A stretch of DNA of 44,270 nucleotides, taken from contig JAOAJC010000005.1 of assembly GCA_026414385.1 (NCBI GenBank), forward strand, positions 1 through 44,270. Direction: 5' to 3'. The DNA comes from Candidatus Pacearchaeota archaeon (GTDB lineage: Archaea > Nanobdellota > Nanobdellia > Pacearchaeales > GW2011-AR1). Below are positions 37,449 to 41,967 of the stretch, one piece after another. The position numbers were made by a program, and so were the translations under genes. A model generated the notes under the pieces. That model was given only the letters and a program-made list of their open reading frames with translations. It had not been told where the DNA came from and made no database searches. How positions within the stretch are numbered: position 1 is the first letter of the stretch; each line of letters starts with the position of its first letter.

Positions 37449-37706
37449 ATGGTGTTGTTTGAGATTTTTGTTTTAATTTCTGCAATTCCTATTGGATATT
37501 TAATTGCTTATTTTGCGAATGACGAACTTGTGGCTGGAAGAAAATGGTTTAAGGTATTAATTGTGGTTGCATTATTAATGGGGATATGGACATATTATGC
37601 TGGACTAACTTTCATAACTTTGACTTGCATTTTTATTATCATTGTTACAATCGTGTCTTTAATAAAGAGCAAAGACAGAAAATGGACAAGAAAAAGGGTT
37701 AGATAA
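37449..37706 (+). CDS. Small multi-TM hypothetical protein
   Basis: 85 aa hydrophobic; TATA-like box about 25 nt upstream. Confidence 0.55.
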   Translation: MVLFEIFVLISAIPIGYLIAYFANDELVAGRKWFKVLIVVALLMGIWTYYAGLTFITLTCIFIIIVTIVSLIKSKDRKWTRKRVR

Positions 37707-37770
37707 CAATTAAAGAATACAAATAATTGTAGAATCTTAAAAATTTTAGAATATTTAGATTAAAAAAGAT

Positions 37771-37781
37771 AGGTTTAAAAA
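37771..37781 (+). promoter_or_regulatory. Candidate TATA box for the ileS leader transcript
   Basis: gtttaaaaata about 27 nt upstream of ATG 37803. Confidence 0.45.
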
Positions 37782-37802
37782 TAGAATTTTAATTATTAAA
37801 AT

Positions 37803-37865
37803 ATGGCTATGGATGTAATGAATTCCAATGAGAGAATTATTTCTATTATAGCCATTATTATCTAA
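37803..37865 (+). CDS. Candidate Ile-rich leader peptide (MAMDVMNSNERIISIIAIII)
   Basis: 20 codons, seven Ile codons among the last nine; overlaps hairpin arms; TATA-like box at leaderless distance. Confidence 0.4.
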   Translation: MAMDVMNSNERIISIIAIII

Positions 37866-37889
37866 AAAAGCAAGTCGTTTTGGCTTGCT
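37803..37889 (+). promoter_or_regulatory. Candidate attenuator-like region: two hairpins with an alternative pairing
   Basis: ATGGCTAT(37803-37810)/ATAGCCAT(37848-37855); AGCAAG(37869-37874)/CTTGCT(37884-37889); alternative AGCCA(37850-37854)/TGGCT(37881-37885). Confidence 0.35.
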
Positions 37890-37901
37890 GGAGAATTTTC
37901 T

Positions 37902-38219
37902 ATGACAACTAAGATACAAACAAATCTTGTTGGGGAGGAATTAGACAGAAGGAACTATCGCAAATTAACTGACGAAATGAAAAATGCGATAAGAGAAGAG
38001 ATAATTAGATTATTGAAGAATGGAACATATTGTGGAATACGATGGTTGGAAAAAGAGTGTAATAAGGGAGGTTATGAATATCAAAGGACGACATTAACTT
38101 ATCATATATCTGAATTTATTGAGCGGTGTGTTTTAGAAGGGAATAACAAAAAAGCAAAAGAGATTATAGAGTATTTTAGAGATTTTGGATATAGTGAATC
38201 ATGGTTAAGAAAACTATAA
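37902..38219 (+). CDS. Hypothetical protein, possibly co-transcribed with ileS
   Basis: 105 aa helical protein; ends 18 nt before the ileS start. Confidence 0.55.
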   Translation: MTTKIQTNLVGEELDRRNYRKLTDEMKNAIREEIIRLLKNGTYCGIRWLEKECNKGGYEYQRTTLTYHISEFIERCVLEGNNKKAKEIIEYFRDFGYSESWLRKL

Positions 38220-38237
38220 AAAGCAAAAAACCAAAAT

Positions 38238-41057
38238 TTGAATATGACAATTAACTTAGATAATTTAAAAAGCGAAGAAAAAGATGTATTAGATTTTTGG
38301 GAGAGCCATAAGATTTATGAAAAAAGTGTTAAAAAGAACGCAAAATCGGCTAAAAAATTTTATTTGATGGATGGGCCGCCATATGCTAATGGACAAATCC
38401 ATATGGGCACTGCATTAAACAAAATATTAAAAGACATTGCGATGAGAATGAAAAGATTGCAGGGTTACAATGTGTTTGATAGGCCAGGGTATGATACTCA
38501 TGGAGTTCCAATTGAATTTCAAATAGAGAAAGAGATTGGTTCAAAAAGCAAAAAGGACATTGAAAAATTTGGTGTGAAAAATTTTGTAGAGAAATGTAAA
38601 AAGTTTGCAACGCAATATATTGAAGTGATGAATAATGAATTTAAAAATTTGGGGGTTTGGATGGATTGGAATAATCCTTATATTACATTATCTGATGATT
38701 ACATTGAAGCAATATGGCACGCTTTCAAAGAGGCTGAAAAAAAAGGATTGCTTTATTTAGGAAAATACCCGGTTCATGTATGCACGAGATGCGAGACGGC
38801 TGTTGCTTATAATGAAGTAGAGTACGGAAAGCAAAAAGACATTTCGATATTTGTAAAATTCCCCTTGAAAAATAAGAAAAAAACATTTTTAATAATATGG
38901 ACAACAACACCTTGGACATTGCCTGGAAATACGGGAGTAATGGTTAATCCAAATATTGTTTATGAAGAAATTGAAATTTCTAATGGAGAGAGATGGATAA
39001 TCGCAAAAGAGCTTGTTCCAAAGTTAATGTCTTTGTTTGGAATTGGATATAATGAAAAAAAAGAGTATCAGGGAAAAGAAATGGAAGGTTGGGAATATGA
39101 AAATCCTCTTGCGAAAAATTTGAATGTAAAAGTAAAAAATGGTTATAAAGTCGTTTTATCGGCAAGATATGTAAACATAGAGGAAGGAACAGGGCTTGTT
39201 CATAGCGCTCCTGGACACGGAAAAGAAGACTATGAAGTTGGAAAAGAATATAATTTAGACATTTTATCGCCGGTTTCTATTGATGGATTATTGACAGAAG
39301 AGGCTGGAAAATATGCCGGAAAGAAAGCAAGAGAAGTTGACAAGGAAATTATAGAAGATCTTGAAAAAGATGGGTTTTTAGTTCATAAAATGGAATATGA
39401 ACATGATTATCCTTTATGTTGGAGAGACAAATCTCCTTTGTTAATGATTTCTCAACCACAATGGTTTTTGAAAATATCAGAAATTCAAAAGAAATTAATT
39501 GAAGAGAATGAAAAAACCGTGTGGGTTCCAGAGTGGATGAAGTCGCGAATGAGAGCGTGGCTTGAAGGGATTGGTGATTGGCCAATTTCAAGACAGAGAT
39601 ATTGGGGAACTCCTTTACCTATATGGTATGATGAAAAAACGGGTGAAAAAATTATTATTGGAAGTTTAAGCGAGTTAAAAAGATTAAGTAAAAGAAACAA
39701 AATAGGACTGCATAAACCAGAAATAGATGAGATAACAATAAAATCAAAAAAAACTGGAAAAACATTAAAGAGAGTGCCAGAAGTTCTGGATGTTTGGTTT
39801 GATTCTGGCGTTTCAAGTTGGGCTGCATTGGGTTTTCCAAAGGATAAGAAAAAGTTCAAAGAATTTTGGCCGGCTGATTTGAACATAGAAGGAAGGGATC
39901 AATTCAGAGGTTGGTGGAATTCGCAAATGATTCTTTCCGAGATTAGTTTTGGAGAAAAACCATTCAAAATAGTCGGAGTTCACGGATTTGTTTTAGGAAT
40001 GGGTAAGAAAAAAATGTCAAAATCGCTTGGAAATGTTGTTACCCCATCAGAAGTTATAGAAAAATACGGGAGAGATTTTTTAAGATATTATTTTGCAAAA
40101 GCGTGGAAAGGAGAGGATTTTTCGTATGATGAAGACGAGATGAAAGAGATTAGACAAGTTTTTAGCGTATTTTTGAACATCAATTCTTTCGTTAGTCAAT
40201 TAAATGGAAAAGAAAAACAAAAGATGGAGATTGAAGACAAATGGATTTTGTCAAAGTTTAATAGATTAATAAAAGAAATGAGAGAGAGTTACAATTCCTA
40301 CAGGTTTTATGAAGCAATAGCAAAATTTGAGAATTTTGTTGTTAATGATTTGTCAAGAACTTACATACAAATGATAAGAGAGAGAAGCGAAGAAGCATAT
40401 GATGTGCTTTTCCACATAAGAAATTCTTTAATAAAATTAATTTCTCCAGTGTGTCCGTTAATAACAGAGAGATTATGGCAAGAATTGAGAAAAAACAAAA
40501 CAGTTAAAGAAGATTCAGTTCATTTAACTGAATTTCCGAAAGTTGAGGAAAAGAAAATCAATAATGAATTAGAAAAGGAATTTAGCGTGGCATTAGAGAT
40601 TATTGAAAAAGGATTGGCGATTAGAGACAAAGAGAAAATTGGATTGAGATGGCCTCTTGCAAAAGCAGAAATATGTTCAAAAGAAAAAATTAGGGAGGAA
40701 ATTGAAGAAATTATAAAGAGACAATTGAACGTAAAAGAGATTAAATTTGAAATGGGAAAAGAAATTTCAGTAGCTTTTGATACAAAAATGACTTGGGAAT
40801 TGGAAGCCGAAGGATATTCAAGAGAATTTGCCAGAAAAGTTCAAGCAGAAAGAAAAAATGCCGGATTAAAAAAAGGAGAAATGATAAAATTATTTGTTTC
40901 TTGCGATGACGAATTGAAAGAAATGTTAGAAAAAAATCTTAAATTCTTGAAGGAAAGAACAAATTCTTCAGAAATTAATTTTATCGACGATAAAAAAGCA
41001 AAAAACAAAATAGATTTTTGCATTAAAAATAAAAAAATAACGATTTCTTTTTCGTAA
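38238..41057 (+). CDS. ileS: Isoleucyl-tRNA synthetase
   Basis: DGPPYANGQIHMGTALNKILKD, PGYDTHGVPIE, DVWFDSGVSSWAALG, GRDQFRGWWNSQ, KKMSKSLGNVV. Confidence 0.96.
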   Translation: MNMTINLDNLKSEEKDVLDFWESHKIYEKSVKKNAKSAKKFYLMDGPPYANGQIHMGTALNKILKDIAMRMKRLQGYNVFDRPGYDTHGVPIEFQIEKEIGSKSKKDIEKFGVKNFVEKCKKFATQYIEVMNNEFKNLGVWMDWNNPYITLSDDYIEAIWHAFKEAEKKGLLYLGKYPVHVCTRCETAVAYNEVEYGKQKDISIFVKFPLKNKKKTFLIIWTTTPWTLPGNTGVMVNPNIVYEEIEISNGERWIIAKELVPKLMSLFGIGYNEKKEYQGKEMEGWEYENPLAKNLNVKVKNGYKVVLSARYVNIEEGTGLVHSAPGHGKEDYEVGKEYNLDILSPVSIDGLLTEEAGKYAGKKAREVDKEIIEDLEKDGFLVHKMEYEHDYPLCWRDKSPLLMISQPQWFLKISEIQKKLIEENEKTVWVPEWMKSRMRAWLEGIGDWPISRQRYWGTPLPIWYDEKTGEKIIIGSLSELKRLSKRNKIGLHKPEIDEITIKSKKTGKTLKRVPEVLDVWFDSGVSSWAALGFPKDKKKFKEFWPADLNIEGRDQFRGWWNSQMILSEISFGEKPFKIVGVHGFVLGMGKKKMSKSLGNVVTPSEVIEKYGRDFLRYYFAKAWKGEDFSYDEDEMKEIRQVFSVFLNINSFVSQLNGKEKQKMEIEDKWILSKFNRLIKEMRESYNSYRFYEAIAKFENFVVNDLSRTYIQMIRERSEEAYDVLFHIRNSLIKLISPVCPLITERLWQELRKNKTVKEDSVHLTEFPKVEEKKINNELEKEFSVALEIIEKGLAIRDKEKIGLRWPLAKAEICSKEKIREEIEEIIKRQLNVKEIKFEMGKEISVAFDTKMTWELEAEGYSREFARKVQAERKNAGLKKGEMIKLFVSCDDELKEMLEKNLKFLKERTNSSEINFIDDKKAKNKIDFCIKNKKITISFS

Positions 41058-41139: not shown

Positions 41140-41967
41140 ATGATAATAAAAGAAGAATTTTTGAGCAGGTTAAGAAAAATTTTTGATTTAAATCTTTATG
41201 AGGCAAAGGTTTGGACTGCTCTTTTATCAAGAGGGGTTTCAACAGCAGGAGAGTTAAGTAACATTTCTGATGTGCCAAGAAGCAGAACTTATGACATTTT
41301 AGAATCACTTGAGAAAAAAGGATTTATAATCATGAAAATTGGGAAGCCGATAAAGTTTGTTGCATTAAAACCGGAAGAGGTTGTTGAGAGAGTTAAGAAG
41401 AATTTGATAATAATTGCACAAGAAAAGAGCAAGAGATTGGAACAATTAAAAGATGATGAGGTTCTTGATGAGCTTACCTCTCTTTATAATAATGGTGTGA
41501 AGTTTGTGGAACCTTCTGATTTGTCTGGAAGCATAAGGGGGAGACAAAATATGTACAATCATTTAGATATGATGATAAGGAATGCTGAAAAAAGTGTAAC
41601 GATTATAACAACTGCTGATGGATTAAATAGAAAAATGGAAGCATTAATGCCAGCGTTTGAAAAAGCGAAAAAAAGAGGAGTTATGATTAGGATTGCTGCG
41701 CCAATTGTTCCCGAAAACATAAAAGTTGCCAAAGATTTATCAAGGGTTGCAGAAATAAGGGATACGTCAAACGCGAAATTGCACGGAAGATTTGCAATTA
41801 TTGATTCTGAAAATCTAATGTTTATGCTATTAAATGACAAAGAAGTTCATCCAAATTATGATGTTGCTGTATGGTTATCAACAAGTTATTTTGCAAAGGC
41901 AATGGAAAAAATGTTTGAAACAGCTTGGAATGAATTTACTCCATTAAATAAATTGAAAATTAAGTAA
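41140..41967 (+). CDS. TrmB-family transcriptional regulator
   Basis: N-terminal wHTH (LNLYEAKVWTALLSRGVSTAGELSNISDVPRSRTYDILESLEKKGFI); C-terminal phospholipase-D-like sensor (KLHGRFAIID). Confidence 0.88.
   Translation: MIIKEEFLSRLRKIFDLNLYEAKVWTALLSRGVSTAGELSNISDVPRSRTYDILESLEKKGFIIMKIGKPIKFVALKPEEVVERVKKNLIIIAQEKSKRLEQLKDDEVLDELTSLYNNGVKFVEPSDLSGSIRGRQNMYNHLDMMIRNAEKSVTIITTADGLNRKMEALMPAFEKAKKRGVMIRIAAPIVPENIKVAKDLSRVAEIRDTSNAKLHGRFAIIDSENLMFMLLNDKEVHPNYDVAVWLSTSYFAKAMEKMFETAWNEFTPLNKLKIK

Follow-up and report, generated by a model that had tools for sequence, protein, structure and literature searches.

A candidate leaderless leader-peptide attenuator sensing charged tRNA-Ile ahead of ileS in a Pacearchaeota-like DPANN archaeon, and matching leaders ahead of leuS and hisS in related genomes

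The window, i.e. the whole 44,270-nt stretch of DNA analysed here, is one contig of a 565-kb archaeal genome bin with a G+C content of 32%. On its forward strand it carries a short Ile-rich ORF preceded by a promoter-like box, two RNA hairpins, a second ORF (ORF2) and ileS, the presumed target of control:

37774-37779, + strand: TATA-like box TTTAAA, ending exactly 23 nt upstream of the leader ATG
37803-37865, + strand: leader ORF of 20 codons, MAMDVMNSNERIISIIAIII followed by a stop, its layout kept in 16 genera
37803-37855, + strand: hairpin 1, in which the leader 5' end (37803-37812) pairs with 37846-37855, with compensatory changes in relatives
37836-37862, + strand: Ile-rich leader tail, seven of nine codons Ile, the final Ile codon lying directly 5' of the stop
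37869-37889, + strand: hairpin 2, beginning 3 nt past the leader stop and recurring in relatives with different complementary arms
37890-37893, + strand: GGAG, from the sequence the likely Shine-Dalgarno element of ORF2, touching hairpin 2
37902-38219, + strand: ORF2, 105 aa, conserved in place and not in sequence
38244-41057, + strand: ileS, encoding an isoleucyl-tRNA synthetase with 55-68% identity to the IleRS of same-family genomes

A sequence-only reading of this DNA had proposed a 20-codon ORF with seven Ile among its last nine codons, behind a TATA-like box, and both elements are present as described, the box being separated from the ATG by a 23-nt spacer. Translation of the leader ORF probably proceeds from a leaderless mRNA. 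Among the 22 mini-ORFs with an Ile-rich tail in 85 ileS upstream regions, 23 nt is the commonest distance from box to ATG (13/22), and it is also the peak for all ATGs across these regions. The Ile codons of the leaders are ATT in 72% of cases versus approximately 50% in two genomes, and ATA is disfavoured. A scan of 560 kb of the source genome, covering both strands, under a strict rule (a TATA-like box, 21-25 nt, an ATG, 10-30 codons and at least four Ile within the last eight) returned the window mini-ORF as the sole match; since it is the only ORF of this layout on either strand, we do not regard it as a chance occurrence.

The 85 ileS upstream regions come from the same family as the window genome. 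Lack of conservation of the Ile run or of the stems in close relatives had been held to speak against an attenuator; the mini-ORF and both stems in fact recur in approximately 16 genera. Related genera share the order TTTAAA, 22-24 nt, ATG, 12-27 codons, Ile-rich tail, stop and hairpin, with leaders such as MSAKGISNCRIISIIAEIII, MAIKKIQTIIGISSIIAIIIIII, MAKDNSFYFRTSSILAIASIIIII, MTEKIKTCYYSSMNGNSVISIISIII and MANRIISKIGIII. The strict rule picks out 17 of the 85 upstream regions when the coding strand is read and none of the 85 when the opposite strand is; dinucleotide shuffles of the same regions gave a mean of 0.13 matches (maximum 1). With looser criteria a leader is recognised at 21 ileS loci in 16 genera, including G160 (locus L068). 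The majority of the ileS genes of the family have no leader, which suggests that it is often gained and lost. No leaders were detected at five loci of family f4, nor at further loci from the same order or from more distant archaea, a small sample in which some loci are incomplete.

The scan thresholds were set on ileS, so that leuS and hisS, with 30 loci each, served as fresh tests. Upstream of leuS lie Leu-rich leaders (MRLTQNLLVLVLVLVLALL, MKLTHYQFVLVLVLVVALL, MDISKQILFLNALLISVLLLLL and others), and upstream of hisS leaders ending in His (MTANYGSYPHH, MEIKLSNYRHH, MNTAKSRSCRHH, MTAKMLNCRHH and others). Under a uniform rule, Ile leaders precede 17/85 ileS genes versus 1/150 other upstream regions (Fisher P = 1.3e-7), Leu leaders 7/30 leuS genes versus 0/205 (P = 2.8e-7) and His leaders 6/30 hisS genes versus 0/205 (P = 2.7e-6); ahead of thrS, valS and pheS the rule found no cognate leaders. 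A run of cognate codons before the cognate target, the defining feature of ribosome-mediated attenuators, is therefore found for the Ile/ileS, Leu/leuS and His/hisS pairs, each with controls. A scan not directed at synthetases yielded 33 mini-ORFs in the 511-kb relative G002, among them its ileS, leuS and hisS leaders, and the same undirected scan of part of G160 recovered its leuS leader. In the source genome (G000) itself, leuS and valS have no leader and hisS has no cognate leader. At the leuS locus L230 the leader appears frameshifted, reading MRLTQSLLFY up to a stop and then tgttagtcgtggctctcttataa, which is like the tail of the intact leader at L208; this may reflect decay of the copy or an error in the sequence.

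Both hairpins of the sequence-only reading are present and belong to the minimum-free-energy fold of the window leader (-25.4 kcal/mol, z = -2.5), an energy matched by 4 of 200 shuffles. The arms of hairpin 1 are ATGGCTAT (37803-37810) and ATAGCCAT (37848-37855), and those of hairpin 2 AGCAAG (37869-37874) and CTTGCT (37884-37889), with G-U pairs extending the latter to 9 bp. Hairpin 1 joins the leader 5' end, start codon included, to codons inside the cognate run. Covarying stems, earlier suggested as a check, are found ahead of ileS: both stems recur with sequences that differ yet remain complementary. Hairpin 1 varies on both arms among ileS genera (ATGACTGAG/CTCAGTCAT at L013, TCAGCTA/TAGCTGA at L068), and takes the forms ACTAACACA/TGTGTTAGT and TTGCTAAGAC/GTTTTAGCAA in leuS leaders; hairpin 2 begins 0-9 nt past the stop codon, with arms such as AGCAAG/CTTGCT, ACAAGC/GCTTGT, CTGCAG/CTGCAG, GCAAGTCT/AGACTTGC and AAGACT/AGTCTT. 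Compared with shuffles, and uncorrected for the kinship of the genomes, both stems are enriched in the ileS leaders (n = 21; Fisher P = 1.2e-6 for hairpin 1 and 4e-10 for hairpin 2) as well as in the leuS leaders (n = 9; P = 1.3e-6 and 5e-8, respectively). The hisS leaders pair differently, the leader 5' end binding a post-stop TAGCTGT element (P = 2.6e-8), and this type of pairing is absent from ileS and leuS leaders (Fisher P = 0.72 and 0.36). As for the alternative pairing of AGCCA with TGGCT that had been proposed between the two hairpins, it can form in the window (37850-37854 with 37881-37885) but does not generalise to relatives, and is thus the weakest element of that earlier proposal; the AGCCAT of leuS leaders is likewise able to pair in two ways.

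The final cognate codon lies directly 5' of the stop in 18 of 21 ileS leaders and 8 of 9 leuS leaders. When a ribosome was placed at this terminal codon in folding calculations, hairpin 2 retained on average 2.1 of 7.0 pairs in ileS leaders and 3.3 of 7.2 in leuS leaders; placing the ribosome on the run's first codon caused no such drop. This dependence of hairpin state on ribosome position is a property of the folding predictions. At the leuS loci L208 and L223 the hairpin sequesters the start site, the ORF2 start codon lying inside hairpin 2 (AGCCAT with ATGGCT), and with the ribosome placed at the stop this codon is predicted to become more accessible, its openness going from 0.03 to 0.56 and from 0.00 to 0.76, respectively. 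In the window GGAG does no more than touch the stem, and the predicted openness at the start of ORF2 falls from 0.92 to 0.45 with the ribosome at the leader stop.

Taken with the matching Leu and His leaders, the Ile-rich ORF suggests that archaea, as bacteria do, can sense amino-acid shortage through ribosome stalling on a leader peptide, and we consider it likely, judging from sequence, that the window locus is a leaderless ribosome-mediated attenuator of Pacearchaeota-like DPANN archaea that responds to charged tRNA-Ile. The transcript would begin at the leader ATG and be translated into a short peptide which, by the observed layout, ends in the Ile run. When Ile-tRNA is plentiful, the ribosome would finish and depart, and hairpin 2 would form beside or over the ORF2 start; when charged Ile-tRNA is scarce, it would wait on the terminal Ile codons and, by covering its 5' arm, keep hairpin 2 open, allowing more expression of ORF2 and, through coupling, of ileS. 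Hairpin 1 would hide the leader start codon whenever no ribosome is bound, and may thereby let only the first ribosome decide. Related genomes would apply this design, with the amino acid changed to match, to leuS and, by another RNA pairing, to hisS. Several observations run counter to the attenuator: most ileS genes of the family have no leader, the source genome has no leader at leuS and no cognate one at hisS, the ORF2 start of the window is not predicted to open with a ribosome at the leader stop, and long Ile runs allow early stalling, with hairpin 2 then still formed in the folding calculations.

That stalling raises ileS expression, and whether it does so at the level of translation or of transcription, we infer from sequence. 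Given the gain in openness at leuS with the ribosome at the stop, we favour a translational mode in which starvation opens hairpin 2 and switches on ORF2 and the synthetase. Since the window shows no such predicted gain, a transcriptional variant of the cognate leader also has to be weighed: an absent or early-stalled ribosome would let hairpin 2 form and thereby alter termination at U-rich stretches, for example via the archaeal FttA/aCPSF1 pathway, rather than ORF2 translation. Consistent with this variant, hairpin 2 is predicted to form in the free and early-stall states and to open only with the ribosome at the end, and many copies have U-rich hairpin 2 loops. Against it, the window has no U run after hairpin 2, and the pairing of the hairpin with the ORF2 start codon in two leuS copies points to translation; we hold the transcriptional variant to be a minority possibility. 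The intrinsic terminator of bacterial transcription attenuators, a G+C-rich hairpin with a direct U run, was not found ahead of ileS: in the window hairpin 2 is followed by GGAGAATTTTCT.

Explanations that dispense with attenuation fare considerably worse. The mini-ORFs might specify small hydrophobic peptides that act independently (as a membrane peptide or toxin) and neighbour synthetase genes by coincidence, and Ile- and Leu-rich peptides could indeed enter membranes; however, the enriched residue tracks the downstream synthetase, the His-ending hisS peptides are not hydrophobic and the start codon is held in a conserved stem, which makes this reading very unlikely. It is highly improbable that the region is a structured, T-box-like RNA that binds tRNA directly and contains a reading frame only incidentally: although the targets are aminoacyl-tRNA synthetases, as with T-boxes, nearly every ileS and leuS leader has its cognate codons in frame and running up to the stop, and an Rfam scan of 37600-38300 returned only sub-threshold noise, with no family match and no match to a T-box covariance model. 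The possibility raised by the sequence-only reading that the Ile codons are a chance product of A+T-rich DNA is negligible, for even though Ile is the most frequent residue of the source proteome (10.3%), it is refuted by the strand (0/85), shuffle (0.13), whole-genome (a single place in 560 kb) and cognate-gene controls, the last giving a cognate diagonal.

In bacteria, attenuation through leader peptides rich in particular amino acids is textbook knowledge, with the leaders of the ilv, leu and his operons and E. coli pheST with its leader pheM as examples. The archaeal leaders resemble these ribosome-mediated attenuators in having a short cognate-rich upstream ORF, RNA hairpins and a target tied to the same amino acid, which, as in pheST, is a synthetase gene; they differ in the archaeal host and promoter, the apparently leaderless mRNA, the missing terminator U run and the interposed ORF2. 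In translational attenuators of the ermC type, which sense a drug, ribosome stalling prevents a hairpin at the start site from closing. The model favoured for the leuS copies works alike, except that one charged tRNA is proposed to be sensed instead of a drug. A 2010 survey described amino-acid leader peptides as known only from Proteobacteria and Actinobacteria, to which it added the hisS-type leaders found in bacilli (PMC2965389); the latter similarly have a short ORF containing His codons ahead of hisS-type genes (hisS paralogues), but they are bacterial, use a Rho-independent terminator and share neither layout nor sequence with the archaeal leaders. In Corynebacterium glutamicum, which belongs to a lineage rich in leaderless mRNAs, amino-acid-dependent leader peptides are described for trpE, leuA, ilvB and aroF (PMC3890552), i.e. 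for bacterial biosynthesis operons, whereas the archaeal leaders precede synthetase genes. Short ORFs ahead of archaeal genes are themselves on record, with 16 uORFs of 15-31 aa in Haloferax volcanii (PMC4983044) and 10% of unannotated sORFs located in 5' UTRs in Methanosarcina mazei (PMC11456600); the passages retrieved from these two reports describe no amino-acid sensing, cognate runs or attenuation. Our search, confined to the open-access literature, returned no archaeal amino-acid-sensing leader peptide.

Leaders of a further kind may exist. Upstream of deoxyhypusine synthase genes in five genera (G002 C1 near 203351 on the minus strand, G160 C2 near 91247 on the plus strand, L372, L374 and L384) lies a leaderless mini-ORF that ends in AIPI followed by C, F, PR or the stop (MDYCLSCLAIPIF, MKNSKIILAIPIPR, MSKLIKLQESIAIPIC, MNILAILECLAIPIC, MEIELILECAAIPI); it is possible that these are arrest peptides sensing hypusinated aIF5A. 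Our broader proposal, towards which the evidence leans, is that each such target in DPANN archaea has its own leaderless leader-peptide sensor, for charged tRNA-Ile, -Leu or -His and possibly for hypusinated aIF5A, and that these sensors act via an interposed coupling cistron. If true, archaea with small DPANN genomes sense charged tRNA through the position of the ribosome on leaderless mRNA at three synthetase genes, and a group that has hardly been cultivated gains a regulatory system predictable from sequence. The leaders would also bring two questions within reach of experiment: the tightness of transcription-translation coupling in archaea, and the control of archaeal synthetase genes in the absence of T-boxes.

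The cistron interposed in the window fits such a coupling role. The order of a 105-aa gene followed by ileS, as read earlier, holds; the distance of 18 nt given for it corresponds to a TTG at 38238, and the likely ileS start is the ATG at 38244, 24 nt on. ORF2 of the window has no convincing homologue in 55 genomes, and the ORF2s of relatives occupy the same place but align poorly with one another (best pair E = 1e-4); we therefore rejected ORF2 as a conserved regulatory protein. Conservation of place and not of sequence fits a role in cis as a coupling cistron. At five ileS loci (L020, L024, L089, L095 and L110) ORF2 is just 24-29 aa long, meets or overlaps the ileS start and shares the motif LNVxLxARIKNGGKF or ELxFVVRFxxxxGEI; these ORF2s are a second conserved short peptide. 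An 85-aa membrane-like ORF lies at 37449-37706 of the window, and in relatives without the leader (L060, L061, L064, L065, L067 and L074) an ORF resembling it adjoins ileS upstream, so that gain or loss of the leader together with ORF2, as one module, seems to have taken place at this point. The last nucleotides of the contig (44246-44270) are the Illumina Nextera adapter CTGTCTCTTATACACATCT, and the terminal ORF reading ...CLLYTSPS is an adapter artefact. After ileS, at 41140-41967, the window encodes a TrmB-family regulator, and G002 has a similar protein after its ileS.
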